Assembly (NCBI RefSeq): GCF_003268655.1
Contig: NZ_CP029642.1
Location: forward strand, 3,844,001-3,908,000
Source: Arthrobacter dokdonellae
Lineage (GTDB): Bacteria > Actinomycetota > Actinomycetes > Actinomycetales > Micrococcaceae
Direction: 5' to 3'
DNA length: 64,000 nt
The notes under the pieces were generated by a model, which did not search any database, was not told where the DNA came from, and worked only from the letters and a program-made list of their open reading frames with translations. Both the position numbers and the translations under genes were made by a program. Below, piece after piece: positions 2,306-44,885 of the stretch. The first letter of the stretch is position 1; every line of letters starts with the position of its first letter.

Positions 2306-3562
2306 TCACGGCGGCCACGCCTGGCCGGTGCTGACGGCCGATAACTGCCACAGCCACACAACCCACACCAACTGCAGGAAGGTGAACATGACCACCACCG
2401 CCCACCGGTAAGCGCGGGCGGAGGAGATGAGCGCCGCGGCCAGGGCCAGCGGGAACAGCGGAAGCATCATCCGGAACGTGCTCGACTGCGGGTCCAGGAC
2501 GGCCAGCAGGTACAGGAGGTACATCGCGCACCACAGACGCAGTTCGGCGCCGATGCGGCGCACGGCGCGGGAATTCAGGTACAGGGCAGCCAGCGCCACG
2601 AAAAGGACCGGCAGCAGCGGGCCCCAGAGCGGGCCCACCAAGGCGGTGCCGGCGTCGAACCACGGCTTGAACAGCACCAGGTGCGTACCCCGCCACGCCG
2701 TTTCCGTGTCCGTGTAGGCGCCGGGTTCCCCCGTCGCCCACCACGCCGCCAGCATCCACGCGAATGCCATGAAGCCGCTCACAGCCAGAAGCACCGCGCC
2801 CGCGGCCACCTCGCGCCGCGGGAACGGCTCCCGGCGCCGGTGCAGCCAGCGCAGGACCAGGTGGACACCGACGACGGCGGCAAACGGCACCCCCGCCGGG
2901 CGTGACAGGCACAGCAGCACGACCACCGGGACGGCTGCCCAGTAGCGGCGCCGGATGAGCAGCAGGAGCGCCGCGGCCAGCAGGAATGTGCTCAGCGACT
3001 CCGCGTAGGCCGTCTGGAGGACGGGCGCGACCGGAAAGGTGGCAAAGAACGCCACCCCCCACAGCGAAGTGCCCGGTGAGGCGTAGCCACGGAAGAGGCG
3101 GTAGATGACCAGGGCCGCGGCGAATCCCGCCGCCGTGGCGACCAGGGGTCCCGCCACCACCCAGGGCAGCCCCGTCACTGCGTTCACTCCGCGGGCAAGC
3201 AGCGGGAACAACGGGTAGAACGCCCACTGGTTGGGCTGCGCCGTGCCGTCCGGGTTGCGCGGAATGCTGGCAGGGTAGCCGCCGTCGAAGATGCGCTCGT
3301 ACCAGCCGGCGTCCCAGCGGTTGATGAAAGCCAGGTAGTCGGGCCGCGAACCGGACCAGGGCGATTCCGCGGCCTGGTAGCCCGCCCCGGACAGGATGGC
3401 GAAGGAGACGAGCCGGGCCGCGGCGTACAGCAGCGAGACCTTCACCCACCACGGCGCCCGCCGCAGCGGTGCCAGCAGCCGGCGCAGCCCGGCGTACAGA
3501 AGTCCGTTGACCGTGGGCGCCGGTCGGCCCCGCCCGGCCGTCCCGCCGGCGCCTTCCGTCAC
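2306..3562 (-). CDS. PIG-V-like polytopic mannosyltransferase
   Basis: 418-residue membrane protein with roughly nine to ten hydrophobic segments. The motif NRWDAGWYER (about 81-90) in the first external loop is typical of the PIG-V/GT-C glycosyltransferase family, which uses a lipid-linked sugar donor on the outer membrane face. This suggests a role in glycolipid or protein mannosylation; the acceptor is unknown. I place the start at GTG 3562 because it overlaps the tag stop by four bases (GTGA), implying translational coupling. A TTG at 3592 would extend it by ten residues. It is the last gene of the LOG-DivIVA-tag operon. Confidence 0.72.
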   Translation of the reverse strand: MTEGAGGTAGRGRPAPTVNGLLYAGLRRLLAPLRRAPWWVKVSLLYAAARLVSFAILSGAGYQAAESPWSGSRPDYLAFINRWDAGWYERIFDGGYPASIPRNPDGTAQPNQWAFYPLFPLLARGVNAVTGLPWVVAGPLVATAAGFAAALVIYRLFRGYASPGTSLWGVAFFATFPVAPVLQTAYAESLSTFLLAAALLLLIRRRYWAAVPVVVLLCLSRPAGVPFAAVVGVHLVLRWLHRRREPFPRREVAAGAVLLAVSGFMAFAWMLAAWWATGEPGAYTDTETAWRGTHLVLFKPWFDAGTALVGPLWGPLLPVLFVALAALYLNSRAVRRIGAELRLWCAMYLLYLLAVLDPQSSTFRMMLPLFPLALAAALISSARAYRWAVVVMFTFLQLVWVVWLWQLSAVSTGQAWPP

Positions 3563-4146
3563 GGCCGCTTCAGTGATTCCGCCACCCAGCAACCGGGCTG
3601 GTGGTCGTTGGCAAGGCCCACCGCCTGCATCATCGCATAGGCGGTGGTCGGCCCCACGAACGCAAAGCCCAGCTTCTTCAGCGCCTTGGCCAGTGCCGCG
3701 GATTCAGCCGTCCTGGCAGGAATCGGGTCCGTCTCCGGCCGCGGCACCGCCGGGGCATGGGCCCGCAGCAGCGAGCCCAAGGTGACGCCTTCGGGAAGCG
3801 CCAGGATGGCCCTGGCGTTGCCGATGGTGGCGTTGATCTTCATCAGGTTCCGCACAATGCCCGCATCGGCCATGAGCCGGTCGACGTCCGCCTGCCCAAA
3901 GGCCGCCACGCACGCCGGCTCAAAGTTGGCAAAGGCCGCGCGGAACGCTTCGCGCTTGCGCAGGATGGTGATCCAGCTCAGCCCGGACTGGAATGCCTCC
4001 AGGCTGAGGCGTTCGAAAAGTTCGCGTTCCCCGGCCACGGGCCGGCCCCACTCCTGGTCGTGATAGCGCTGGTACAGCTCGTCGGATTCGATCCCGGCCC
4101 ACGCGCACCTGGCCTTGCCGTCGGCCCCCACGAAGGTCTGGACCAT
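3559..4146 (-). CDS. tag: DNA-3-methyladenine glycosylase I
   Basis: 195-residue base-excision repair enzyme that removes 3-methyladenine from alkylated DNA. The zinc-binding ligands of the Tag family are all present: C14, H29, H182 and C186 (in DHQPGCW). The family motif YHDQEWG is at 28-34 and GLSWITILRKR forms the helix-hairpin-helix region. The ATG at 4146 is two bases past the DivIVA-domain gene stop, so the two are clearly co-transcribed. Confidence 0.93.
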   Translation of the reverse strand: MVQTFVGADGKARCAWAGIESDELYQRYHDQEWGRPVAGERELFERLSLEAFQSGLSWITILRKREAFRAAFANFEPACVAAFGQADVDRLMADAGIVRNLMKINATIGNARAILALPEGVTLGSLLRAHAPAVPRPETDPIPARTAESAALAKALKKLGFAFVGPTTAYAMMQAVGLANDHQPGCWVAESLKRP

Positions 4147-4148
4147 GG

Positions 4149-4544
4149 TCAGGCTTCCTTTCCCGGTTCGACGCCGGACACGTCACCTTCGCCCGGCACC
4201 CCACTCCCGGAGGATGCGCCGGGGACGTTCGCTCCGGAGGGGGGTGCGCCGTCGTGCTTCCCCAGCTCGGCAATCCGCGCGTCCTTCGCGGCCAGCTCGT
4301 CCCGGAGCCGGTCCAGGACCTGATCCACCTGGTCCATGCGGTAGCCGCGCAGACCCAACGCGAAGCGCACCCTGTCGACGTCCTCCGGGGCCGGGGCGTC
4401 GGGCAGCAGCACGGGCGGCAGGCCGGCCACCGGCGGCTGCAGCCCGTCATCGTAAATATCCGCGGCGGGCCGCTTGAGGCCCACCACGTAAAGCGCCACC
4501 GCGGCTGCCAGCATCACGGCGAGGAAGATCAGGAAGTAGCTCAC
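4149..4544 (-). CDS. Membrane-anchored DivIVA-domain protein
   Basis: 131-residue protein. An N-terminal transmembrane helix (residues 3-23) is followed by a DivIVA-like segment VRFALGLRGYRMDQVDQVLD at about 64-83 and a short coiled coil, then a Gly/Pro/Ser-rich acidic tail. DivIVA segments (TIGR03544-like) recur in actinobacterial polar-growth and division proteins; here a single domain is tethered to the membrane. The GTG start at 4544 has GGAGGG upstream. It lies between the LOG protein and tag in one operon. The precise role is unknown. Confidence 0.72.
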   Translation of the reverse strand: MSYFLIFLAVMLAAAVALYVVGLKRPAADIYDDGLQPPVAGLPPVLLPDAPAPEDVDRVRFALGLRGYRMDQVDQVLDRLRDELAAKDARIAELGKHDGAPPSGANVPGASSGSGVPGEGDVSGVEPGKEA

Positions 4545-4604
4545 CCCTCCATGGTGCCAGATCCGCTCCCCAGCCCGGGGGTCAGCCCGCGGCGGCCCCG
4601 GCGG

Positions 4605-5375
4605 TCAGCCCGCGGCGACCTTCGTGCCGGCCTCGCCCGCCATGACCAGGGCCACGGCGTGCTCGGGGGTGTCCGCCAGCTGCACAATGTCCATGTCCCC
4701 GGGGGAAATCAGGCCTTCGGCCACCATGGTGTCGCGGATCCAGTCCAGCAGCGGCGCCCAGAACGCGGTGTCCACGAGCACGATGGGGAACTGCGTGACC
4801 TTGTTGGTCTGCACCAGCACCATCGCCTCGAACAATTCGTCGAGCGTGCCCAGCCCCCCGGGCAGCACCACAAAACCCTGCGCATACTTCACGAACATGG
4901 TCTTGCGGGCGAAGAAGTAGCGGAAGTCCACGCCCAGGCCCACCCACTCGTTCATGCCCTGCTCGAACGGCAGCTCGATCCCGAGGCCGATGGACAGGCC
5001 CCCGGCCTCCGCGGCGCCCCGGTTGGCGGCCTCCATGGACCCCGGGCCGCCACCGGTGATCACGGCCACCCCGGCCTCCGCCAGCAGCCTGCCCACTTCC
5101 ACGCCGAGATCGTAGAGCCGTCCGCCGGGCTTGGTGCGGGCGGAACCGAACACGCTGATGGCCGGGCCGATCCCGGCCAGCGAATCGAAGCCCTGGACAA
5201 ACTCGCTTTGAATCCGCATCACCCGCCACGGGTCGGTGTGCGTGAAGTCGCTACTTGGCGGAGTGTCCAGGAGCCTGGCGTCCGCCGTCGAGCCGGCCGG
5301 CGAGCCTTTGGTCCAGCCGCCGATGCGCTTTTTCAAGGGACGAAGGGACCTGCTGGATCCTGTGGGTGCACTCAT
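4605..5375 (-). CDS. LOG family (TIGR00730) Rossmann-fold protein
   Basis: 256-residue LOG/YvdD-type protein. It carries ITGGGPGSMEAANRGA and LPGGLGTLDELFE, the PGGxGTxxE motif of cytokinin-riboside monophosphate phosphoribohydrolases. Many bacterial members hydrolyse nucleoside monophosphates, but the substrate of this one is unknown. I use the ATG at 5375 rather than a TTG further upstream because a TAGCCT -10 element lies seven bases before this ATG, implying a leaderless message. It is the first gene of the LOG-DivIVA-tag-PIG-V operon. Confidence 0.82.
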   Translation of the reverse strand: MSAPTGSSRSLRPLKKRIGGWTKGSPAGSTADARLLDTPPSSDFTHTDPWRVMRIQSEFVQGFDSLAGIGPAISVFGSARTKPGGRLYDLGVEVGRLLAEAGVAVITGGGPGSMEAANRGAAEAGGLSIGLGIELPFEQGMNEWVGLGVDFRYFFARKTMFVKYAQGFVVLPGGLGTLDELFEAMVLVQTNKVTQFPIVLVDTAFWAPLLDWIRDTMVAEGLISPGDMDIVQLADTPEHAVALVMAGEAGTKVAAG

Positions 5376-5382
5376 GCCACTA

Positions 5383-5388
5383 AGGCTA
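5383..5388 (-). promoter_or_regulatory. Putative leaderless -10 element of the LOG gene
   Basis: TAGCCT followed by seven bases and the ATG, the same geometry seen before gluA, dapD, mshB and ychF in this window. Confidence 0.45.
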
Positions 5389-5471
5389 CGGGAAACCGCG
5401 GTGCCCGCGGGCAGCAACGGTGTGAGCCAGGTATCAAACGCGTTACGATCAGGGCAGAACCGCGGAATGGT

Positions 5472-5500
5472 TTTACCCCCTTGGGATTGTTGGATAGATT
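5472..5500 (+). promoter_or_regulatory. Putative gluA promoter, leaderless
   Basis: TTTACC (5472-5477), a 17-base spacer and TAGATT (5495-5500), then six bases to the gluA ATG. The message would start at or next to the start codon. Confidence 0.55.
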
Positions 5501-5506
5501 CGCTTC

Positions 5507-6265
5507 ATGACTAATCCCGTACAGGCACCTGCCCTCGTGGAACTTAAGGCCGTCAACAAGCACTACGGCCCCCTCCACGTTTTGCAGGACATCAACATGC
5601 AGGTCAAAAAGGGTGAGGTCGTGGTGGTCATTGGGCCCTCGGGCTCGGGAAAGTCCACGCTCTGCCGGGCCATCAACCGCCTCGAAACCATCGACGATGG
5701 CTCCATCACCATCGAAGGGGAGGAACTGCCCAAGGAAGGTAAGGCGCTGGCAGCGTTGCGGGCCGACGTCGGCATGGTCTTCCAGTCCTTCAACCTGTTC
5801 GCGCACAAGACCATCCTGGAAAACGTGACCCTGGGCCCCATCAAGGTCAAGGGCGTCTCCAAGGCCGACGCCGACAAGCAGGCCCTTGCGCTGTTGGAGC
5901 GCGTCGGCGTGGGGCACCAGGCGGCCAAACTGCCCGCGCAGCTGTCCGGGGGACAGCAGCAGCGGGTGGCCATTGCCCGCGCCCTGGCCATGAAGCCCAA
6001 GGTGATGCTCTTTGACGAGCCCACCAGCGCCCTGGACCCGGAGATGATCAACGAGGTCCTCGACGTCATGGTCGAACTTGCCCAGGATGGCATGACCATG
6101 GTGGTGGTGACCCACGAAATGGGCTTTGCCCGCAAGGCCGCGGACAGGGTCGTGTTCATGGCGGACGGGCAGATCGTGGAGGAAGCCACCCCGGACGAGT
6201 TCTTCACCAACCCGCAAAGCTCCCGCGCCAAGGACTTCCTCTCCAAGATCCTGACCAACGGATAA
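5507..6265 (+). CDS. gluA: Glutamate/polar amino acid ABC transporter, ATP-binding protein
   Basis: 252-residue ATPase of the polar amino acid uptake family, energising import through GluC/GluD. Walker [10 protein letters not shown] is at 43-51, the signature LSGGQ at 146-150, Walker B VMLFDEP at 166-172 and the switch histidine at H203. It heads a four-gene operon in the order ATPase, binding protein, permease, permease, the gluABCD order of Corynebacterium and relatives. Glutamate as substrate is inferred from that order. The start has no Shine-Dalgarno but a -10 element at the right distance for leaderless translation. Confidence 0.88.
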
Positions 6266-6345
6266 CTTATCCGCATTTGAGTCCCATCACGCTCAATTTT
6301 TCACTCGCACCAGCGGCCCGAAGGGCCGTTTATGAAAGGAACCCC

Positions 6346-7251
6346 ATGAAGAACTTCTTCCTTCGAAAGAGCCTCAGCGTTGCGGCGATCGCCGCAGCTG
6401 CCGCCCTGGCCCTGTCAGGCTGTGGCGGCACCGATGCCGGCAGCGGAAGCAGCGGCGGCGCAGCAGGCCCCAACTTTGAAGTGGCCAAGGATGTAGCCCT
6501 GACCGGCAGCCCCACCTTCGACAAGGTCAAGTCCGCCGGCACCATCCGCATCGGCGTCAAGGAGGACCAGCCCGGCCTGGGCTACCTCGATGCCGCCACG
6601 GGCGAGCGCACCGGTTTCGACATTGAGATCGCCAACTGGATGGCCGCCTCCCTGGGCATCGCCAAGGACAAGATCGAGTTCAAGGCGATCCCCTCGGCAA
6701 ACCGTGAGACGGCACTCGCCAACGGCGACGTGGACCTCTACGTGGGCACCTACTCCATCACGGACAAGCGCAAGAAGATTGTTGACTTCGCCGGCCCGTA
6801 CTTCATCACCGGCCAGGGCCTGCTGGTGCAGAAGAAGAACGACACCATCAAGAGCGAGAAGGACCTGGACGGCAGGACAGTCTGCTCCGCCACGGGTTCC
6901 ACGCCCATCCAGAACATCAAGGACAATTTCCCGAAGGTCAAGACCCAGGAGTTTGACCTGTACTCCAAGTGCGTGGAGGCCCTCAAGAGCGGCACGGTGG
7001 ACGCCGTGACCACGGACCAGGCCATCCTGCTCGGCTTTGCCTCACAGGACCCGGACAACCTGAAGGTTGTGGGTGAGCCGTTTACGGTGGAGAAGTACGG
7101 CATCGGCGTGGCCAAGGGCGACACCGCGCTGCGCACCTTCCTGAACAAGACCTTGACCGATGGCGGCGCCACGTGGACCAAGATCTACGACGACACGCTG
7201 GGCAAGTCCGGCACCAAGGTTGAGCAGCCGAAGGTCGACCAGTACTCATAG
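6346..7251 (+). CDS. gluB: Glutamate-type ABC transporter substrate-binding lipoprotein
   Basis: 301-residue periplasmic-type binding protein (SBP_bac_3). The signal sequence ends in a lipobox LSGC with the lipidated cysteine at C26. The binding domain contains the family hallmark GERTGFDIEIANWMA and VDLYVGTYSITDKRKK. The ATG at 6346 has GAAAGGAAC upstream; an in-frame start at 6277 would give an implausible signal peptide. A strong hairpin follows the stop codon, probably favouring high expression of this gene over the permeases. Confidence 0.88.
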   Translation: MKNFFLRKSLSVAAIAAAAALALSGCGGTDAGSGSSGGAAGPNFEVAKDVALTGSPTFDKVKSAGTIRIGVKEDQPGLGYLDAATGERTGFDIEIANWMAASLGIAKDKIEFKAIPSANRETALANGDVDLYVGTYSITDKRKKIVDFAGPYFITGQGLLVQKKNDTIKSEKDLDGRTVCSATGSTPIQNIKDNFPKVKTQEFDLYSKCVEALKSGTVDAVTTDQAILLGFASQDPDNLKVVGEPFTVEKYGIGVAKGDTALRTFLNKTLTDGGATWTKIYDDTLGKSGTKVEQPKVDQYS

Positions 7252-7260
7252 CCCCTGAAC

Positions 7261-7291
7261 GATGGTGGCGCCCCACCGGGGCGCCACCATC
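7261..7291 (+). terminator. Strong intercistronic hairpin between gluB and gluC
   Basis: A perfect 14-bp stem, GATGGTGGCGCCCC (7261-7274) and its complement (7278-7291), with a 3-base loop. No T-run follows, so it is more likely an mRNA-stabilising or partial-termination element than a complete terminator; gluC starts 39 bases later. Confidence 0.7.
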
Positions 7292-7329
7292 TGTTCGTCC
7301 TTCCAATTCACTGAAAGTGACACTGCACT

Positions 7330-7980
7330 GTGAATGTACTCATTGACAACAGCGGGCTCTTCGTCACCGGCTTCAAAAACACCGGCATCTTGTTTGTCAT
7401 CTCCGCGTTCTTCGCCCTGGTCCTGGGCACCGTCGTCGCCGGCATGCGGGTGTCCCCCGCCCCGGCGATGCGTGGGGCAGGAACCCTGTACGTCAACGCC
7501 GTCCGCAACACGCCACTGACCCTGATCCTCGCCTTCTTTGCCCTCGGCTACCCCAAACTGGGCCTGCCGGAAATCGGCTTCATGAATGCTGCCATCGTCG
7601 GCCTCTCGCTCTACACGGCAACCTACGTTTCCGAGGCCATCCGCTCCGGCATCAACACCGTTGCGGTGGGCCAGTCGGAGGCCGCCCGCGCCATCGGCCT
7701 GCCCTTCATGCAGACCCTGACCTTGATCGTGCTGCCGCAGGCGTTCCGCTCGGTGCTCCCGCCGCTGTTCAGCGTCTTCATCGCGCTGCTGAAGAACACC
7801 ACGGTGGCCGCCGGCTTTTCCGTGTTTGAGGCCGGCGCCATCCGCGCCTACCTCAGCGAGCGCGGCGAGCCGCTGCTGCCGGGCCTGCTGTGGGTGGCCG
7901 TGATCTTTGTGGTGCTGGTGCTTGGCATCCTGACGCCGCTGCAACGCTACCTCGAGAAGAAGTGGAGGGTGGCCCGATGA
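7330..7980 (+). CDS. gluC: Glutamate-type ABC transporter permease 1
   Basis: 216-residue inner-membrane permease with about five transmembrane helices. It has the BPD_transp_1 EAA loop YVSEAIRSGINTVAVGQSEA (about 98-117), which contacts the ATPase. It begins at GTG 7330; an ATG at 7334 is out of frame. The 3' end overlaps gluD by four bases (ATGA). It pairs with GluD to form the translocation pore. Confidence 0.86.
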   Translation: MNVLIDNSGLFVTGFKNTGILFVISAFFALVLGTVVAGMRVSPAPAMRGAGTLYVNAVRNTPLTLILAFFALGYPKLGLPEIGFMNAAIVGLSLYTATYVSEAIRSGINTVAVGQSEAARAIGLPFMQTLTLIVLPQAFRSVLPPLFSVFIALLKNTTVAAGFSVFEAGAIRAYLSERGEPLLPGLLWVAVIFVVLVLGILTPLQRYLEKKWRVAR

Positions 7981-8819
7981 GTTCAGTACTTTTTGATGTT
8001 CCCGGCCCCAAGGCACGCACTCGCAATGTCTACCTGAACGTTGCCACCGTCATCGTGGTGGCCGCCATCATTGGCTTCATCCTGTACCGGTTCAACGAGT
8101 CCGGCCAGTTCACGGCGAAGAAGTGGGAGATCTTCACCTTCCCGCGCGTCCAGCAAATGTTCCTGACGGTCATCGGCGCCACGCTGAAGGCCTTCGCCGT
8201 GGCCGCCGTGGGCAGCCTGGTCCTGGGCATCCTGCTCGCGTTCGGCCGCCTGGCGGACTCCCGGTGGGTCAGCGTGCCGTGCTACTGGTTCACCGAGCTG
8301 TTCCGGGCCGTGCCGCTGCTGATCCTGATGATGATCATGTACTACGGGCTGCCGTCGGCCGGCGTGAAGGGCATCACGCCGTTCATCGCGGTCGTGGTGG
8401 GGTTGATCCTGTACAACGGCTCGGTCCTGGCGGAAGTGTTCCGGGCGGGCATCGAGTCGCTGCCGAAGGGCCAGCGCGAGGCGGGGCTCGCCGTCGGCCT
8501 GTCCAAGGGCCAGGTGCAGCGGATCATCCTGCTGCCGCAGGCGGTCCGCTCCATGCTGCCCGTGATCATCTCGCAGCTGGTGGTCATCCTCAAGGACACG
8601 GCGCTTGGCTTCCTGATCACCTACAACGAGGTCCTTTACTACGCGAACTTCCTGGGCTCGCAGGGCCAGTACGGCTCCCCCGTGGTGCCGGCGCTCATGG
8701 TCACCGCGGTGATCTACGTGGGCCTGTGCCTGATCCTCTCCGGCATCGCCAAGCTCGTGGAATCGAGGATGTCCAGCCGCGTCAGGGTCGTCAAGACAAG
8801 GGTGGGCCTGGCCGGCTAA
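7977..8819 (+). CDS. gluD: Glutamate-type ABC transporter permease 2
   Basis: 280-residue permease. It has an N-terminal cytoplasmic stretch, about five to six transmembrane helices and the EAA loop LAEVFRAGIESLPKGQREAG. The start ATG at 7977 overlaps the gluC stop, which indicates translational coupling. It is the last gene of the operon; a very large palindromic repeat lies 11 bases after the stop and probably ends the transcript. Confidence 0.86.
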   Translation: MSSVLFDVPGPKARTRNVYLNVATVIVVAAIIGFILYRFNESGQFTAKKWEIFTFPRVQQMFLTVIGATLKAFAVAAVGSLVLGILLAFGRLADSRWVSVPCYWFTELFRAVPLLILMMIMYYGLPSAGVKGITPFIAVVVGLILYNGSVLAEVFRAGIESLPKGQREAGLAVGLSKGQVQRIILLPQAVRSMLPVIISQLVVILKDTALGFLITYNEVLYYANFLGSQGQYGSPVVPALMVTAVIYVGLCLILSGIAKLVESRMSSRVRVVKTRVGLAG

Positions 8820-8830
8820 GCACCATTCCC

Positions 8831-8903
8831 CGTCTGTGTTGCGCATCTTCGACGAAAGTGGCCCGATTTCGGGGATTTTCGTCGAAGATGTGCAACACAG
8901 ACG
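8831..8903. repeat. Long imperfect palindrome (REP-like element or bidirectional terminator)
   Basis: Two 27-base arms (8831-8857 and 8877-8903), complementary except for one base, enclose a 19-base loop that itself contains a CCCGA/TCGGG mini-hairpin. It sits exactly between the convergent gluD and dapE stops. Its length, internal substructure and core TCTTCGACGAAA suggest a dispersed palindromic repeat rather than a simple terminator; only one copy is visible here. Confidence 0.75.
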
Positions 8904-8914
8904 TCGTTAAGGGG

Positions 8915-10057
8915 CTAGGCGAGCCAGCGGGTGAGGGCGTCCAGGCACGCACGGATGTCCGCGGCGACCACATGCTCGTTGTCGCTGTGGGCCAGGAGCG
9001 GATCGCCTGGGCCAAAGTTCACGGCCGGGATGCCGATCTCGCCCAGCCGGGCAACATCCGTCCACCCGTATTTGGGCAGCGGCTCACGGCCCACGGCCGC
9101 AACGAACGACGCCGCCGCCGGCGCATTGAGCCCGGGGCGCGCACCCGCCGAGGAGTCCGTGCACACCAGCTCAAAGCCGGCCAGCAGCCCGCGCACATGG
9201 GCCTCGGCCTGCTCCGGCGTCTTGTCCGGGGCGAAGCGGTAGTTGATCTCCACCACACACGCATCCGGGATCACATTGCCGGCCGTGCCGCCATGGATCT
9301 TCACCGCGTTCAACGACTCCCGATAGTCCAGCCCGTCCACCGTGACGGTGGCCGGCTCGTAGGCGGCAAGCCGGGACAGGATCGGGGCGGCAGCGTGGAT
9401 GGCGTTCTTCCCCATCCAGGCGCGCGCCGAATGCGCAGCGAGGCCGTGCGTGGTGGCCTCGAATCGGATGGTGCCGTTGCAGCCACCCTCCACCGTTCCG
9501 TTGGTGGGTTCGAGCAGGATGCCGAAATCGGCGTCCAGCAGTTCACGGTTCTCGCGGACCAGCCGGCCCAGGCCGCTTTTGGCTGCCGCCACCTCCTCGT
9601 GGTCGTAAAAGATGAAGGTGATGTCCTTGCTGGGTTCGGGCACGGTGGCGGCAAGGGCCAGCTGCACCGCGATGCCGCCCTTCATGTCCGTGGCGCCGCG
9701 ACCGTACAGGACCCCGCCGTCCCAGGCACTGGGAACCGTGCCCCGGGAGCCCGGAACGGTTGGCAGCGGAACAGTGTCCAGGTGTCCGGCCAGGATGACG
9801 CGCTCGTCGCGTCCCCGCGATGTCCGGGCCACCACAGCATCGCCATTGCGGGTCACCTCAAGGTGTGGGAGGGCGCGCAGCGCGTCCTCCACGGCATCGG
9901 CGAGCGCCGACTCATTGCCGGAGACGCTTTCGATGTCCATGACAGCGGCCGTCAGCGCGGCGACGTCGCCGGCGAGGTCAAGCCGAAGGCCGCCGACTGG
10001 CGGGCCCGGGGCAGGGGCGGGCGGTACGGAAAGGGTGGTGCCGTCGTCGTTAGTCAC
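8915..10057 (-). CDS. dapE: Succinyl-diaminopimelate desuccinylase
   Basis: 380-residue M20-family dinuclear zinc hydrolase of the succinylase branch of lysine/diaminopimelate synthesis, releasing LL-DAP for peptidoglycan. The metal site is visible: GHLDTVP with H92 and D94, GRGATDMKGG with bridging D124, and DHEE with catalytic E154 and ligand E155. The C-terminal ligand His is in LLAHSDNEHV. In relatives dapE is divergent from and adjacent to dapD; here four other genes lie between them. The other two pathway genes in the window are dapD and dapC. Confidence 0.92.
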   Translation of the reverse strand: MTNDDGTTLSVPPAPAPGPPVGGLRLDLAGDVAALTAAVMDIESVSGNESALADAVEDALRALPHLEVTRNGDAVVARTSRGRDERVILAGHLDTVPLPTVPGSRGTVPSAWDGGVLYGRGATDMKGGIAVQLALAATVPEPSKDITFIFYDHEEVAAAKSGLGRLVRENRELLDADFGILLEPTNGTVEGGCNGTIRFEATTHGLAAHSARAWMGKNAIHAAAPILSRLAAYEPATVTVDGLDYRESLNAVKIHGGTAGNVIPDACVVEINYRFAPDKTPEQAEAHVRGLLAGFELVCTDSSAGARPGLNAPAAASFVAAVGREPLPKYGWTDVARLGEIGIPAVNFGPGDPLLAHSDNEHVVAADIRACLDALTRWLA

Positions 10058-39159: not shown

Positions 39160-40245
<1,086 letters not shown>

Positions 40246-40301: not shown

Positions 40302-40331
40302 AAGAACGGCGGGAGTGAACCCGCCGTCCTT
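40302..40331 (-). terminator. Terminator of the peptide/M50 transcript
   Basis: ACGGCGGG/CCCGCCGT stem (40306-40313 with 40320-40327) extended by three pairs across one mismatch, 6-base loop, 22 bases after the stop of the last peptide gene. Confidence 0.75.
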
Positions 40332-40352
40332 GAAGGCAAATCCCTTCCGGTG

Positions 40353-40556
40353 CTAGTGCATCGAGAAGAGGTTCTGCCACGCGCCGGTCTGGGCCACGGA
40401 TCCAATTGTCGCCGCGTTCAGCGCCAGTGCCAGATTGACACCGATCACCGGAGCGACGTTGAAATTGAAGTCCAGGAACAGTGTTTCGCGGCTGGGAAGC
40501 AGCTCCGCCGTCTCGGCTTCGAGATCGATGGAGCTCAGTGCGGATGTTGCTGTCAT
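40353..40556 (-). CDS. Small precursor-like peptide 3 of the M50 locus
   Basis: 67-residue peptide, diverged paralogue of the two peptides upstream. Shared blocks are DLE at 11-13, ELLPSRETL at 18-26, NAAT at 47-50 and GAWQN at 58-62; the middle is hydrophobic and Asn/Ala-rich (VNLALALNAATIGS). There is no cysteine, signal peptide or known family. AAAGGTGAA lies six bases before ATG 40556. It is the last gene before the terminator. The leader-like conserved N-terminus plus variable C-terminus suggests a peptide that is processed, possibly by the adjacent M50 protease; that is inference. Confidence 0.75.
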   Translation of the reverse strand: MTATSALSSIDLEAETAELLPSRETLFLDFNFNVAPVIGVNLALALNAATIGSVAQTGAWQNLFSMH

Positions 40557-40617
40557 GGCGGTTCACCTTTCTCTGTTGCCGGGCATCTGAAATTCCTAAC
40601 ACCCGGCTACTGGATTG

Positions 40618-40815
40618 TCAGTGCTGGGTGAGGCTGACATTCTGCCAGGCTCCGCTCGTTGCACTCGAGAGCAGGGTCACGGCATTGACAGCGTAGGACG
40701 CATTCTGCGCCGCGACAGCTGCCCAGTTGATGTGGAAGTTCAGGAGCAGAGTCTCCCGTGACGGGAGCAGCTCTACGCTCTGTCCCTCCAAATCCATGAC
40801 GGTCAGTTTCTCCAT
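40618..40815 (-). CDS. Small precursor-like peptide 2 of the M50 locus
   Basis: 65-residue peptide beginning MEKLTVMDLEGQSVELLPSR and ending in a segment with NASYAVNAVTLLSSATSG followed by AWQNVSLTQH. It is nearly identical to peptide 1 (42446-42643), including 106 identical bases covering the 5' half and ribosome site. I start at ATG 40815 with GGGAGGTGA at ideal spacing rather than the GTG at 40824. The ribosome site lies inside the last codons of the M50 gene, one base from its stop, so translation is coupled to the protease. Confidence 0.82.
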   Translation of the reverse strand: MEKLTVMDLEGQSVELLPSRETLLLNFHINWAAVAAQNASYAVNAVTLLSSATSGAWQNVSLTQH

Positions 40816-40816
40816 C

Positions 40817-42304
40817 TCATTCACCTCCCTTCAGGTCTAGGAGGTCGATCGATGAAAGCTTTGAGGTTCTGAGGCGCAGCAAGCCGGCAGGGAGCGGCAG
40901 GCGACGCGCACTCACGTGCCGCACCGGGCCGGCCACCTCCGTGTGCCGCGCGGGCTTGGGACGCAGGTGGGCGCCGGCCATTCGGGGAGTCGATGTTGCA
41001 GGTGGTGCTGTGGAACGCCGCGCCTTCCGCATGTTCTGCACGGCCTTCACTCCGTCGAGGGCGAGCCGCGGAATGAGGACGGCGATGCCGGCAACAGGCA
41101 GCGCCAGCAGCACAATCGACAGCAAGGACAGCACAACCTCTGCGGGGCGGCCCTGCGCCCAGGCGGCGCTCAATGCCTGAGAATGCAGTACGACGGCGCC
41201 GACCGCGCCGCCAACAATGAGCGGGAGGTTCCACAACAGCCAGGCGAAGAGCAGGACCAAGGCAGGAATGACGGTCAATACCCACACCCTGACAAGACGC
41301 CTGGCCGAGGGCCGCAACTCCAGGACCCGCGGGTCAAGCGGACGGCCGGGGATCAGCCCGCGCATGACGGGTCCGACGCGGGAAAAAAGATCCGGCACGC
41401 CGGCCAGATCGGTCAGGACAAAGTAGCCATCGAGCCTGATGGTCGGCGGAAGCTGCTGGATCATCATGATTTGCGTGGTGATCACGAACAGCAACAGGAT
41501 CCCATTGCCGGTCAGCAGGTAGCCCAAGCCTGCCAGCAGCACGCACCATACGTTGAAGTAAAGCCCGCCCAAATCGGTCCGCAGCCTGCCGGCCCGGCCC
41601 AGACGGTAGGAGTCGGTCACGTTGGTGAAGAACGCCGGGAACACCAGATACACCCCGACGCCGATGACCCCAGGTTCGGCTCCGCCATACTTGCAGGCGG
41701 TGGCGTGCCCCAGCTCATGGATCCCGGCCCCGACAACCATCATGACGAACAGGCCCAGCAGCAGGGTCGGGCTGACCCAGATCTGCTCCAGTGCGCCCAC
41801 GATGCTGCTCGAGACAAACAGCAGCACGTCAAGCCCGATCAGTGCCGCCAGGGCCAAAATGACCACCGGCGGAAAATACAGCGGCCGCAGCACGGCGGCG
41901 AGAGAATTGACGGCCCGGGCCGGCAGGAGCGTTCCCTTGAGCCGGAGGGCCAAAAGCGGACGTGCCGTCGGTGCCGGGTCGCCCTTGGGCCCGGATCCTG
42001 CGGCATCCTCAAGCAGGCCCAAGGGCCGCAACTTTTGGTCGATGAGCAGCGTCAGCCCCGCCACGTCAAGTTCCCGGCCGTAGGCCTGGCTCACATCGCG
42101 GGCAAGCACAGGGGAGACCGGTTCAGTTGCGGCTTTCGTGAGAACCAGGTCCAATAACTCCGAGATCTGGATGACTTGTCCGTCGGGGCGCCGGACCAAG
42201 AAGGTCTCCTGCACCAGTCCGGATCCCGTCGCCGGACCCAAGAGTTCCACGCCGGGCACCACACGCCACCGGACTGCTTCCCCTTGACTGGGTTCAATGG
42301 TCAT
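40817..42304 (-). CDS. M50-family membrane zinc metallopeptidase with PqqD-like N-terminal domain
   Basis: 495-residue polytopic protein. Residues about 12-100 (VPGVELLGP, LVRRPDGQVIQISELLDLVL, then a helical LLIDQKLRPLGLLED) resemble the winged-helix PqqD/RRE fold that binds leader peptides. The membrane core has the zinc site HELGH at 196-200 and the M50 third-ligand motif LDG at 291-293 (in PPTIRLDGYF), with about eight hydrophobic helices. A basic Pro-rich cytoplasmic tail follows. It resembles proteins annotated as putative peptide zinc metalloprotease (YydH-like). The start at 42304 lies after a strong hairpin. It is flanked on both sides by paralogous small peptides, its probable substrates. 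Confidence 0.82.
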   Translation of the reverse strand: MTIEPSQGEAVRWRVVPGVELLGPATGSGLVQETFLVRRPDGQVIQISELLDLVLTKAATEPVSPVLARDVSQAYGRELDVAGLTLLIDQKLRPLGLLEDAAGSGPKGDPAPTARPLLALRLKGTLLPARAVNSLAAVLRPLYFPPVVILALAALIGLDVLLFVSSSIVGALEQIWVSPTLLLGLFVMMVVGAGIHELGHATACKYGGAEPGVIGVGVYLVFPAFFTNVTDSYRLGRAGRLRTDLGGLYFNVWCVLLAGLGYLLTGNGILLLFVITTQIMMIQQLPPTIRLDGYFVLTDLAGVPDLFSRVGPVMRGLIPGRPLDPRVLELRPSARRLVRVWVLTVIPALVLLFAWLLWNLPLIVGGAVGAVVLHSQALSAAWAQGRPAEVVLSLLSIVLLALPVAGIAVLIPRLALDGVKAVQNMRKARRSTAPPATSTPRMAGAHLRPKPARHTEVAGPVRHVSARRLPLPAGLLRLRTSKLSSIDLLDLKGGE

Positions 42305-42338
42305 CGTCCACAACCTTTTTGTTGTCAGACCGGACGTT

Positions 42339-42382
42339 CCGACGGCGGGATCACCGCTAATGAGCGGTGATCCCGCCGTCGG
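42339..42382 (-). terminator. Very stable hairpin between peptide 1 and the M50 gene
   Basis: A perfect 20-bp stem (42339-42358 with 42363-42382) and a 4-base loop, 63 bases after the peptide 1 stop and 34 before the M50 start. There is no T-run. It probably lets only part of the transcription continue, giving much more peptide than protease. Confidence 0.75.
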
Positions 42383-42445
42383 GGTGTAACTGAAATGAAG
42401 TCGGTCCCCGTGCATCTCACACCGGAACCCGGTCGACTGGTGTCG

Positions 42446-42643
42446 TTAGCGCTGGCTGACGCTGACGTTCTGCCAGGCACCGCTGGTTGCACTGGAGAGC
42501 AGGGTCGCGGCGTTGACTGCGTAGGACGCATTCGAGGCCATGACAGTTGCCCAGTTGATGTGGAAGTTCAGGAGCAGAGTCTCCCGTGACGGGAGCAGCT
42601 CTACGCTCTGTCCCTCCAAATCCATGACGGTCAGTTTCTCCAT
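42446..42643 (-). CDS. Small precursor-like peptide 1 of the M50 locus
   Basis: 65-residue peptide, first of the three paralogues. It has DLE (8-10), ELLPSRETL (15-23), an Asn/Ala-rich stretch NASYAVNAATLLSS (38-51) and GAWQN (55-59), ending VSVSQR. It has no Cys, so thioether or disulfide chemistry is excluded; Ser/Thr/Asn/Trp are the modifiable residues. AGAGGGGGTGA precedes ATG 42643 at good spacing; a GTG at 42652 is too close to that site. It lies between two strong hairpins, indicating a separately controlled, abundant message. Confidence 0.82.
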   Translation of the reverse strand: MEKLTVMDLEGQSVELLPSRETLLLNFHINWATVMASNASYAVNAATLLSSATSGAWQNVSVSQR

Positions 42644-42667
42644 CTCATTCACCCCCTCTCGTGGAAT

Positions 42668-42704
42668 GTAGCTACGATTCCTTGACCCACGGGGCCAGTA
42701 GCTA
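42668..42704 (-). promoter_or_regulatory. Possible regulatory repeat upstream of peptide 1
   Basis: TAGCTAC-type heptamers occur at 42668-42674 and 42698-42704 (as GTAGCTA on the plus strand), 30 bases apart, just before the peptide 1 ribosome site. SARP regulators bind direct heptamer repeats, so these are candidates, but the spacing is not the usual 22 bases. Confidence 0.25.
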
Positions 42705-42810
42705 AAGTAAAGGGCCGGGCCCGTTACTGCTGCGTTACTGCTTCCGCCGCCGGCCCGCTGCGGGCGCCGAAGAGGCGGCGGGAGCAGACGCTGAGAAGCG
42801 CGCAACAAGA

Positions 42811-42849
42811 AAGGTTCCGGGGTGCGGCGGAGCGCCACCCCGGAACCTT
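42811..42849 (-). terminator. Rho-independent terminator after the CxxC-repeat protein
   Basis: Perfect 14-bp stem (42811-42824 with 42836-42849), 11-base loop, then TCTTGTTG on the minus strand; 28 bases past the stop codon. Confidence 0.82.
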
Positions 42850-42877
42850 CGTCAATGCTGTCTGTCCGCGCCGGAAG

Positions 42878-43624
42878 CTACTGCCCCGATCGCACGTCGA
42901 TGTTGCGCTGCACGGACGAGGCCCCCACGTCCTTGAGGATGATCTGGGCCAGCCGCGCCGCGGTGTCGTCGGTAAGGCTCTTGGCCAGAGGTGCTGACCG
43001 CTGCAGCCCCTGGCTGCGCGGCGTGTTCTGGAGCCGTTGTCCCAACTCGGTCTGAATCTGACTAATCATGTCCTTGGCTTGGGCGGACAGGTCACGCCGG
43101 GTGCCCCCCGAAATGACGAATTGGATGGCCGCGGAGCTGGTGGTGCATTCAGTGCACTCGACGTTGAGTGCCAGCGCGCGGTTATTCACGTTGAGCTGCG
43201 TGGCCCGGCGGGCGACGACCAGCTGGACGGCAACAGCGGAGGAAGAGCACCCTGCGCAACTTGACCATGCGACGGCGGAATTGTCGGCATTGGCCACTTT
43301 ACCGTCGAAGTACACCACTTGGAATGTGGTGGCCACGCCGGAACAGCCGTCACAATTGCTGGTCGCCATGGAAACGGACTCGGCCTTGTTCGTCGAGGAG
43401 GACGTCCGCACGGTGCTTTGCGCGCTGTCCGAAACGGTCGGCTGCCCCGGCGTGGGAATTGCCGTGGACGCGGCGTCCAAACTGGTGGAGCGGTGAATCA
43501 TCATGTGCGCGCCTTGGGAGGACGCCTCGGCGGGGACCACACCGACGGTGGCCGGTCCGACGAGGAGCATGCCGGAGACCAGAATCAGCACCCCAAAGGC
43601 GCCTTTGACCAGTTTTGTGCGCAT
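42878..43624 (-). CDS. Secreted protein with three CxxC repeats
   Basis: 248-residue exported protein. The signal peptide (residues 1-35) ends VVPAEASS and a Ser/Thr-rich linker follows. Three repeats of about 33 residues then appear, each CxxC followed by an Ala-rich stretch and Q-hydrophobic-V: NCDGCSG at 90-96, SCAGCSS at 122-128 and ECTECTT at 156-162. Between them run NxAxA patterns (NNRALALN) reminiscent of the Asn/Ala segments in the adjacent peptides. A helical C-terminus ends the protein. GAGGAAAAACT precedes ATG 43624. The function is unknown; the repeats could bind metal or form disulfides. Confidence 0.78.
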   Translation of the reverse strand: MRTKLVKGAFGVLILVSGMLLVGPATVGVVPAEASSQGAHMMIHRSTSLDAASTAIPTPGQPTVSDSAQSTVRTSSSTNKAESVSMATSNCDGCSGVATTFQVVYFDGKVANADNSAVAWSSCAGCSSSAVAVQLVVARRATQLNVNNRALALNVECTECTTSSAAIQFVISGGTRRDLSAQAKDMISQIQTELGQRLQNTPRSQGLQRSAPLAKSLTDDTAARLAQIILKDVGASSVQRNIDVRSGQ

Positions 43625-43700
43625 AGTTTTTCCTCATATCTACTAGGAACTGCCGATTGGATCGAAGTCACTGCTGCTGTACATGAGGAGACCGGGATAA

Positions 43701-44456
43701 TCATGGGAAGGCGCTGCGGGAACGAGGCGGTAGTTGGGCCGCCGAGGCTTGGAAGGAGTGGACTGGATCCATCAATGAAGCAAAAATCGAAGAAGGTCTT
43801 ACGCCCAGCTCCCGATTCAACCGGACCCGAAAGTCGTGAAAAGTCTGCATGGCAGAGACATGGTTGCCAGCCTGAACGTGGCATTTGAGAAGCACCAGCT
43901 GCGCACTTTCACGCAGCGGTTCGATGGCAGTTGCCGCAAGTGCGGCCTCGGTGGCGCATCCAGTGTCGCCCATCTGGAGATAGTGGCGGGCCAACATCTC
44001 CAGTCCGTCAAGGCGCAGCTGTTGTAGACGTTCCTGTTCGAAGATGACCCAGTCGTCATACCAGCCGGGCAGAAGGTCCGCATGGTAGAGCATCTGGGCC
44101 AACTCCGACGCAGCCAGGCCGCCGTCCCGTATGTCTGCAATGAGCCAGCGGATTTTATGGAAATCGACCTCTACGTCCGGCTCCAACGACAGGTAGTCGT
44201 GCCTCGGATCCACGATGCCGGGAAGCTTATGTGTGATGTGAAACAGGCTGGCCCGGAGATTCCCCGCTGCCTGGACCTCGGAACTGTCCGGCCAGAGCAG
44301 GCTTGCCAGTGAATGCCGGGAACGGGTCCCGAAGAGCGCCAGGGCCGCAATGACGCGTTGCTGACGGGGACCGACGGTGACCTGGCAGCTACCGAGCCGG
44401 AGTTGCCAAGAACCCAGAAGCCTGAGTTCCCACTTCTGATTTACGAGGCCATCCAT
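43701..44456 (-). CDS. SARP-type (AfsR/BTAD) transcriptional activator
   Basis: 251-residue regulator. An OmpR-like winged helix (WELRLLGSWQLRLG then QQRVIAALALFGTRSRHSLA) is followed by a complete bacterial transcriptional activation domain (LLPGWYDDWVIFEQERLQQL; HVSAMQTFHDFRVRLNRELG). SARPs are pathway-specific activators, classically of secondary-metabolite clusters. I start at ATG 44456 because GGGGGAG lies just upstream; the longer frame to 44564 has no ribosome site. It heads the same-strand block of CxxC protein, peptides and protease. The 192 bases upstream hold its promoter. Confidence 0.85.
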   Translation of the reverse strand: MDGLVNQKWELRLLGSWQLRLGSCQVTVGPRQQRVIAALALFGTRSRHSLASLLWPDSSEVQAAGNLRASLFHITHKLPGIVDPRHDYLSLEPDVEVDFHKIRWLIADIRDGGLAASELAQMLYHADLLPGWYDDWVIFEQERLQQLRLDGLEMLARHYLQMGDTGCATEAALAATAIEPLRESAQLVLLKCHVQAGNHVSAMQTFHDFRVRLNRELGVRPSSIFASLMDPVHSFQASAAQLPPRSRSAFP

Positions 44457-44648: not shown

Positions 44649-44885
44649 TCACTCGGGAAAGTCTTCCAGCCACTTCCGGACGGTCTCAAGAATCTGCTCG
44701 TGGCTGGCCGCCAGTGCTTCCCGGGGTTGGCCCGTCCCGGCCCGGCCGAACGTCAGGCGGCAGCGGAAAGGCTGATCGGCGTTGGCCTCGGACCAAATGC
44801 GGATCACCATGGTGCCACGGCCGGCGGTGTCATCGCCTGCGTGATCAGCGTTCATGGTGACTACCGCCAATTCCTCTTCCTTCAT
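44649..44885 (-). CDS. Small hypothetical protein
   Basis: 78-residue protein beginning MKEEELAVVTMNADHAGDDT with TMVIRIWSEANADQPFRCRL and an amphipathic C-terminal helix ILETVRKWLEDFPE. AGGGGGG precedes ATG 44885. I do not recognise a family. It lies upstream of the SARP gene on the same strand, 192 bases away, and divergent from rmuC, so membership in the peptide locus is uncertain. Confidence 0.65.
   Translation of the reverse strand: MKEEELAVVTMNADHAGDDTAGRGTMVIRIWSEANADQPFRCRLTFGRAGTGQPREALAASHEQILETVRKWLEDFPE

Follow-up and report, generated by a model that had tools for sequence, protein, structure and literature searches.

A set of genes on the minus strand of a 64,000-nucleotide stretch of Arthrobacter dokdonellae DNA (contig NZ_CP029642.1, positions 3,844,001 to 3,908,000; hereafter the window) is built around an intramembrane protease of the M50/S2P (site-2 protease) type. 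They follow one another as a conserved 78-residue open reading frame (ORF; 44649..44885), a SARP-type activator with a BTAD domain (43701..44456; PF03704, E = 1.1e-14), a secreted-looking CxxC-repeat protein (42878..43624), peptide precursor A1 (65 residues; 42446..42643), the M50 protease (40817..42304), peptide precursor A2 (65 residues; 40618..40815) and peptide precursor B (67 residues; 40353..40556) with the core NVAPVIGVNLALALNAATIGS. An original prediction, made from the sequence alone, had placed the named genes on one strand, and all of them are present there in that order; the ELLPSRETL and GAWQN blocks that it described are common to the window peptides. It had the set start with the SARP gene, which is present, but the 78-residue ORF upstream probably precedes it as the first gene of the transcription unit. 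This small ORF has no match at the Pfam cut-off and was matched by a hidden Markov model (HMM) in 10 of the 12 complete group-1 loci, as defined below.

A family-level sample of 197 genomes was searched with the window M50 protein, a profile of the peptides and the free CxxC protein. M50 matches were found in 25/197 genomes. Group 1 comprises 12 genomes with 13 loci, the window included, whose M50 proteins share 50-78% identity, and group 2 comprises 14 loci with longer proteins of about 40% M50 identity; two weak matches are daptide-type proteases (L053, 382 bits on NF041824, and L052, 69% identical to L053). The 12/197 genomes that the peptide profile matched coincide with group 1; the same 12 also matched the free CxxC protein (E < 1e-80), with nine further genomes matching in that search through the C-terminal part of group-2 proteases. 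The co-occurrence test proposed in the original prediction thus came out in its favour, and a group-1-type M50 protein, peptides and a free CxxC protein were found in none of the remaining 185 genomes. The odds of drawing the same 12/197 genomes at random are about 2e-19, which is a guide only, as the genomes are related. Within this sample the peptides are not widespread without the protease, an outcome that would have counted against the original prediction: only two A-type peptides lie off any M50 gene (L066 9736-9987 and L067 9475-9684), both in genomes with a full locus elsewhere, and these orphans are possibly served in trans. In genome G096 the CxxC gene sits on a separate contig, at the contig end, and G150 has two group-1 loci, L039 without and L040 with a CxxC gene.

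At a threshold of 1e-20, the M50 profile matched 48/296 class-level and 24/296 phylum-level genomes, counts that include six genomes at both levels and G213 (both levels) and G464 (class level) with weak matches only. The 70 loci studied here are the window, 12 other group-1 loci, 14 of group 2, 20 each from the class and phylum levels, and three of plasmid or viral origin. A gene finder based on third-position GC misses genes, and the counts for CxxC proteins, SARP, small ORF and leaders were therefore taken from six-frame ORFs.

Precursor peptides and the CxxC-repeat protein

Homologous peptides lie at the M50 gene in 13/13 group-1 loci, and in six comparisons between window peptides and relatives the ratio of nonsynonymous to synonymous substitution rates (dN/dS) was 0.05-0.46, in every case below 1, which points to constraint at the protein level; on both counts the peptides are not chance ORFs. 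The 40 group-1 peptides comprise 27 of class A (A1 and A2 of the window among them) and 13 of class B; each of the 13 loci has a single B peptide and between one and three A peptides. Both classes have a leader of the form EL.AE.VELLPxRETL, which in A1 contains ELLPSRETL and precedes a putative beta-arch core. A strict form of the leader motif was present in 88 of 3459 same-strand ORFs near M50 versus 10 of 12984 other ORFs of the same 70 loci, and in 54/70 loci; a looser form reached 59/70, partly through spurious matches. The three window peptides lack Cys, as originally stated, but this does not hold throughout the group, since Cys is absent from 32/40 peptides and eight hold one; C-terminal Thr occurs in 0/40. 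Scans of precursors and CxxC proteins gave no match at the Pfam or NCBIfam cut-off, consistent with the earlier remark that the set fits no class that can be named.

In the 27 class-A peptides, N30, A36, N38, S40, A42, S54, A56, Q58 and Q64 are invariant (zero entropy), A32, N44 and A52 are conserved in 26/27 and V34, V60 and V62 vary conservatively, whereas the odd positions between these have a mean entropy of two bits or more. Permutation of this even/odd contrast gave p = 0.008 for positions 34-46 and p = 0.0001 for positions 50-64. In class B the second stretch shows the alternation clearly (p = 0.009) and the first does not (p = 0.10); the larger fused-type precursors described below show a similar alternation, with no p-value assigned. 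Judged by sequence, class A follows the pattern of a pair of beta-strands linked through a TxxS turn, the conserved face being made up of Asn, Ser, Ala and Gln. An alternating conserved face on strand-turn-strand repeats is an amyloid-type feature, and it is seen in both stretches of class A and in the second only of class B.

The window CxxC protein has, by reading, a signal-peptide-like N-terminus, followed by three strand-CxxC-strand repeats (about residues 80-172) and, in a low-confidence model, C-terminal helices; six strands are paired across three CxxC turns in this weak AlphaFold model. Its similarity to the peptides was scored with a profile built from the 40 peptides alone, since an early iterative HMM might have absorbed CxxC proteins. 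With the core profile, the best-domain scores of 11 CxxC proteins were 22.0, 13.5, 12.9, 12.4, 12.3, 11.8, 11.6, 9.5, 8.8 (window), 6.7 and 5.9 bits, and 10.2 bits was the highest score among 2200 shuffled sequences, of which 2160 were scored. By best-domain score, 7/11 CxxC proteins lie above every shuffle with the core profile and 9/11 with the whole-peptide profile, for which the window protein scored 9.9 against a shuffle maximum of 9.8. The alignments (the strongest four and the start of that for the window protein) fall on the third repeat and comprise N-x-S/A/R-x-A-x-N, a CxxC replacing TxxS, and A-x-Q. In the CxxC proteins of L043, L044 and L045 the middle CxxC is lost and the surrounding pattern kept.

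The CxxC domain is present in 48/70 loci and is fused to the M50 protein in 26/70. In group-2 proteases it forms the C-terminus and follows what looks, by reading, like an additional membrane helix, and the neighbouring gene encodes a protein of about 220-390 residues with repeated blocks and a leader of the form ALPDKEV. A profile of 24 such larger precursors aligned with that of the small peptides from leader to core (probability 66, E = 7e-6, score 31.2), and the best of 39 scored column-shuffled nulls reached 9.3. When cores were classed by eye, the CxxC domain accompanied beta-arch-like cores in 43/45 assessable loci and other cores in 0/11 (Fisher p = 5e-10, a guide only, as the loci are related). 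The two beta-arch loci without it are L039 and the phage contig L118. This table leaves out 14/70 loci, namely those with contig ends beside M50 (L034, L105, L108, L142, L151 and L152), L055 with a broken precursor gene, and seven in which no precursor was recognised (L138, L139, L140, L145, L148, L155 and L156). The loci with other cores are L111-L115, L120, L149, L150, L153, L154 and L157, with examples rich in SPGSNN, rich in glycine or hydrophobic. In L103 (6617-8902; CbiA, E = 1e-10) and, by reading, L104 (6834-9125), M50 and a MinD/ParA-type ATPase form one fusion protein, and the neighbours there are a SARP, one A and one B peptide, and a CxxC protein.

The M50 protease and its relatives

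The window M50 protein contains the motifs HELGH and RLDGY. H196, E197 and D292 (of RLDGY) are invariant in 17 aligned M50 proteins and the second His is conserved in 16/17, L055 having HEFGR; HExxH and a distal Asp, the defining feature of M50/S2P proteases, are thus both present. L055 (8858-11467) looks like a decaying copy, with HEFGR in place of HExxH and a precursor gene recognised as a fragment only. In the model, strands and then three helices make up the first 100 residues, a region with a predicted local distance difference test score (pLDDT) of mostly 50-80, and residues 10-100 or so fit a recognition element (RRE) of ribosomally synthesized and post-translationally modified peptides (RiPPs). 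Foldseek gave no significant match for the M50 model, and so no independent confirmation of the RRE.

Profile alignment (hhalign) of the M50 proteins with two daptide-type proteases gave a probability of 98.6 over 270 columns. Daptide peptidases are described, in passages of PMC10036551, as an RRE fused to an S2P intramembrane peptidase that removes the leader, and EpeP is thought, in passages of PMC10885120, to cleave and export its peptide; from kinship with both, the window M50 protein would cleave and export as well. That it processes the neighbouring precursors is very probable, and much safer than any role proposed for the product. Beyond the original prediction, the sequences show a resemblance between the CxxC protein and the peptides, a fusion of its domain with the protease in some other lineages, and a kinship of the protease with the daptide RRE-peptidases.

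Membership of the known families was considered and rejected. On the daptide model NF041824 (daptide_HExxH) the window M50 protein scores 105 bits against a cut-off of 300, while the daptide-type L053 scores 382; on the epipeptide model NF058609 it scores 45 bits against a cut-off of 225; and the protease of TMcin belongs to a different family, the window M50 protein having no DUF3267 match. What it has in common with the daptide protease MpaP, as excerpted from PMC10036551, is the RRE-like N-terminus on an S2P-type HExxH membrane peptidase and the several short precursors beside it. Daptides have an ELExMEAP leader and a C-terminal Thr, whereas the window leader reads ELLPxRETL; leaders of the type [LM]L[PV]x[RK][EDH]T head the 40 group-1 peptides, and Thr is the last residue of none of them. 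No MpaB/C/D/M-type enzyme was recognised among the ten ORFs beside the window locus, which are the part of the window covered by annotation (the other loci were clustered, without enzyme-model scans), and the CxxC partner, also found fused to the protease, is a further difference from daptides. EpeP/YydH-LiaK (NF058609), in passages of PMC10885120, is likewise a membrane protease of the M50 type with a presumed role in cutting and exporting a peptide, but the precursors differ and no radical-SAM gene occurs among the window ORFs scanned. TmcP, to judge from sections of PMC13252029, is an S2P-clan protease that removes a leader in the Gram-positive membrane; it differs in being a DUF3267 protein with a product that contains a transmembrane helix.

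Genomic context and regulation

The window genome (4.5 Mb, two contigs) has ordinary-looking genes on both flanks of the locus, YchF on one side and RmuC, LytB and PPK2 on the other. The ten ORFs scanned gave matches to these four families and to DUF3090, a weak PEMT match under the cut-off, and four proteins without a family, one of which is the 78-residue ORF. As the original prediction had held, no modifying enzyme was recognised in this set. The ychF gene adjoins the locus in the window (39160-40245) and also a fused form in another family (L100, 4778-5863), and this shared neighbour may reflect chance or a common insertion place.

Several hairpins lie in the gaps between the genes on the minus strand. 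A perfect stem of 20 bp between peptide A1 and M50 (42339..42382) was found as a self-complementary match (z = -10.3), and another putative hairpin can be read at 42812..42850, in the gap that separates the CxxC gene from peptide A1. Perfect stems of 11-20 bp follow 10/27 class-A and 1/13 class-B peptide genes (40 examined), and we infer that such stems would keep peptide transcripts above protease transcripts. The gene set had been said to end in a terminator: a terminal hairpin can be read at 40302..40335, but it has no T-run and is absent from the terminator-scan output. A promoter scan found no promoter.

SARP homologues are present in 12/12 complete group-1 loci. Of 57 further loci that are complete or wider, L103 and L104 gave a match and L153 a weak one that is probably unrelated; no other did. 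The original step from the SARP to a biosynthetic locus is not supported in that form: the SARP is rare outside group 1, while the core of precursor and M50 genes is far wider. When 49 loci were clustered, wide sharing was seen for M50, the precursors, SARP and the small ORF, and otherwise for an ABC-ATPase cluster of mixed content and for genes of the chromosomal context.

Some copies lie on mobile elements. L119 and L120 are on the linear Streptomyces plasmids NZ_CP107797 and NZ_CP102333, where the protease and precursor genes (in L119 the CxxC gene too) are annotated as hypothetical proteins only. The phage contig L118 (IMGVR_UViG_3300036785_001048) carries at 3190-7494 an A-type peptide gene (5524-5712) and an RRE-M50 gene just past capsid genes that encode a cement protein and a major head protein (phrog_2522, E = 1e-93); the 13 kb examined showed neither a B peptide nor a CxxC gene. 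A generally phage-borne system was considered and rejected, with no match in 50,697 phage records and one contig from three viral-contig scans. Anti-phage defence was likewise rejected, as a PADLOC scan of six proteins gave one weak match (E = 0.001), from the ATPase portion of the fused L103 protein.

Possible roles of the gene set

We infer a pathway that would run from leader binding through cleavage and export to assembly and a role at the cell surface. A gene set under SARP control would make two kinds of precursor, A and B, with a shared leader and a beta-arch core. The RRE-like N-terminal domain of the M50 protein would bind the leader in the cytosol, and its S2P-type membrane domain would cut the leader off and probably also let the core leave the cell, a route proposed because no transporter was recognised among the ORFs scanned beside the window locus. 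Outside, A subunits from one to three genes and B subunits from a single gene would stack through their Asn/Ser/Ala/Gln faces together with the exported CxxC protein, whose repeats have a similar design with CxxC replacing TxxS. The CxxC protein would serve an assembly on the cell surface as its template, anchor or cap; some other lineages have this domain as part of the protease itself. We put at roughly 45% the probability that the leader guides cleavage in the membrane and that beta-arch subunits, set free outside the cell, assemble with a CxxC partner. The broader proposal is more doubtful: a new actinobacterial secretion and assembly pathway in which an RRE-S2P protease exports and trims leader-tagged beta-arch proteins without a signal peptide or dedicated transporter, and these polymerise at the cell surface on a similarly folded template of CxxC repeats, which some lineages fuse to the protease.

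Curli CsgA/CsgB and the FapC amyloids also have strand-turn-strand repeats, conserved Asn, Gln, Ser and Ala, and a related pair of subunits, in which the window system is alike. In contrast to curli and Fap, it gave no curlin match, its precursors have no signal peptide, and a leader with an RRE-S2P protease stands in for the Csg or Fap machinery; no such machinery was seen among the window ORFs scanned, and curlin is absent from the Pfam matches at E ≤ 1 for the window peptides, the CxxC protein and their relatives. The system works like RRE-guided S2P maturation, yet it is not a daptide, epipeptide or curli system, and no known family tested shows all of its defining features here. The protease step has known kin, and none was found for the products and their partner.

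Several observations weigh against extracellular assembly. The strand stretches of the permutation tests were picked after the alignment had been viewed, and the strict leader pattern was framed after the sequences had been seen; no leader gene was recognised in 16/70 loci with the strict motif or in 11/70 with the loose one, which lets in spurious matches. The window CxxC protein falls below the shuffle maximum of the core profile (8.8 versus 10.2), and whole-sequence scores are below 5 bits for 7/11 CxxC proteins, several being low or negative. Both AlphaFold models are poor (pLDDT 42.9 from two sequences for the CxxC protein and 49.5 from four for M50), and the Foldseek matches to FapC (E 0.13) and CsgA (E 0.99) for the CxxC model and to MibB (E 1.1) are not significant; Pfam gave no curlin or chaplin match. 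For the RRE, nothing relevant came up when the RRE-like domain was searched against PDB profiles, PqqD is missing among the Pfam matches, and the hhalign match begins only in the helical half of the domain. In some lineages the leader, next to M50, heads cores of a very different kind and a CxxC domain is absent, so that the protease would serve more than one kind of product and the leader/M50 module may be a general platform. Finally, SARP control, the plasmids and the one phage copy also fit an antimicrobial.

Export through the protease is weakened by ABC-2-type permease genes, named by reading, which lie within 6 kb of M50 in 4/12 complete group-1 loci. Such a gene directly adjoins M50 in L036 only (7838-9519) and lies 4-6 kb off in L038 (14374-16166), L039 (2184-3994) and L042 (3896-4708), three loci that share much chromosomal context; an ABC ATPase adjoins it, by reading, in L036, L038 and L039. 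The other 8/12 loci have no member of this permease family in the clustering. The permease could export the products or be mere context, and as it adjoins M50 in a single locus it weakens the lack of a transporter without changing the odds.

The main rival, ranked second behind extracellular assembly and on balance unlikely, is an unmodified or lightly modified two-component bacteriocin, in which the RRE-S2P protease would release the A and B cores against rival membranes and the look-alike CxxC protein would protect the producer. Class IIb two-peptide bacteriocins also consist of two different small peptides that always occur together, and the constant pairing of one B with one to three A peptides in 13/13 loci would suit such a role, as would the SARP, the patchy spread (12/197 genomes, Streptomyces plasmids and one phage contig) and the permease in 4/12 loci. 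Among S2P relatives, EpeP and TmcP serve the production of antimicrobials and MpaP that of a RiPP, according to excerpts of the papers cited above. Unlike class IIb bacteriocins, however, the precursors have no double-glycine leader, and no ABC transporter or immunity family was recognised in the ten ORFs beside the window locus, although immunity proteins may have no family. The same leader type on 24 larger proteins (about 220-390 residues) with repeated blocks, the fusion of the would-be immunity domain to the protease in 26/70 loci, and a phage copy without a B or CxxC gene in the 13 kb seen also argue against it.

It is improbable that the product is a RiPP that, by a daptide- or epipeptide-like logic, is modified ahead of M50 cleavage by enzymes whose genes lie at other sites in the genome. 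The kinship of the M50 protein with daptide and epipeptide proteases and the RRE-like fold modelled for its N-terminus are what such a product would call for, but no modifying enzyme was recognised in the ten window ORFs or among the widely shared families of the 49-locus clustering, and 32/40 group-1 peptides lack Cys and 0/40 end in Thr. Less probable still is signalling or regulation, with the cleaved peptides as pheromones or SARP activators and the CxxC protein as a receptor or a redox or metal sensor. CxxC motifs could bind metal or form disulfides, and the SARP gene adjoins the others in group 1, which would both suit this role; however, a SARP is found in few of the wider loci, and an alternation over about 35 residues suggests a structure rather than a short pheromone.

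No paper describing this gene set was found among the matches listed in the open-access literature, where text strings resembling the leader were ordinary words or chance strings, nearly all of them "ellperm"; sections of PMC7470986, PMC3781837 and PMC12096830 add nothing on it. With M50 relatives in 48/296 class-level and 24/296 phylum-level genomes, a widespread protein system may have gone unnamed. If it is a two-component bacteriocin, it would represent a large family of unmined peptides. If extracellular assembly is correct, these genes would provide a route for beta-assembling proteins out of Gram-positive cells without a signal peptide, and RRE-guided leader processing would extend from natural products to structural proteins.

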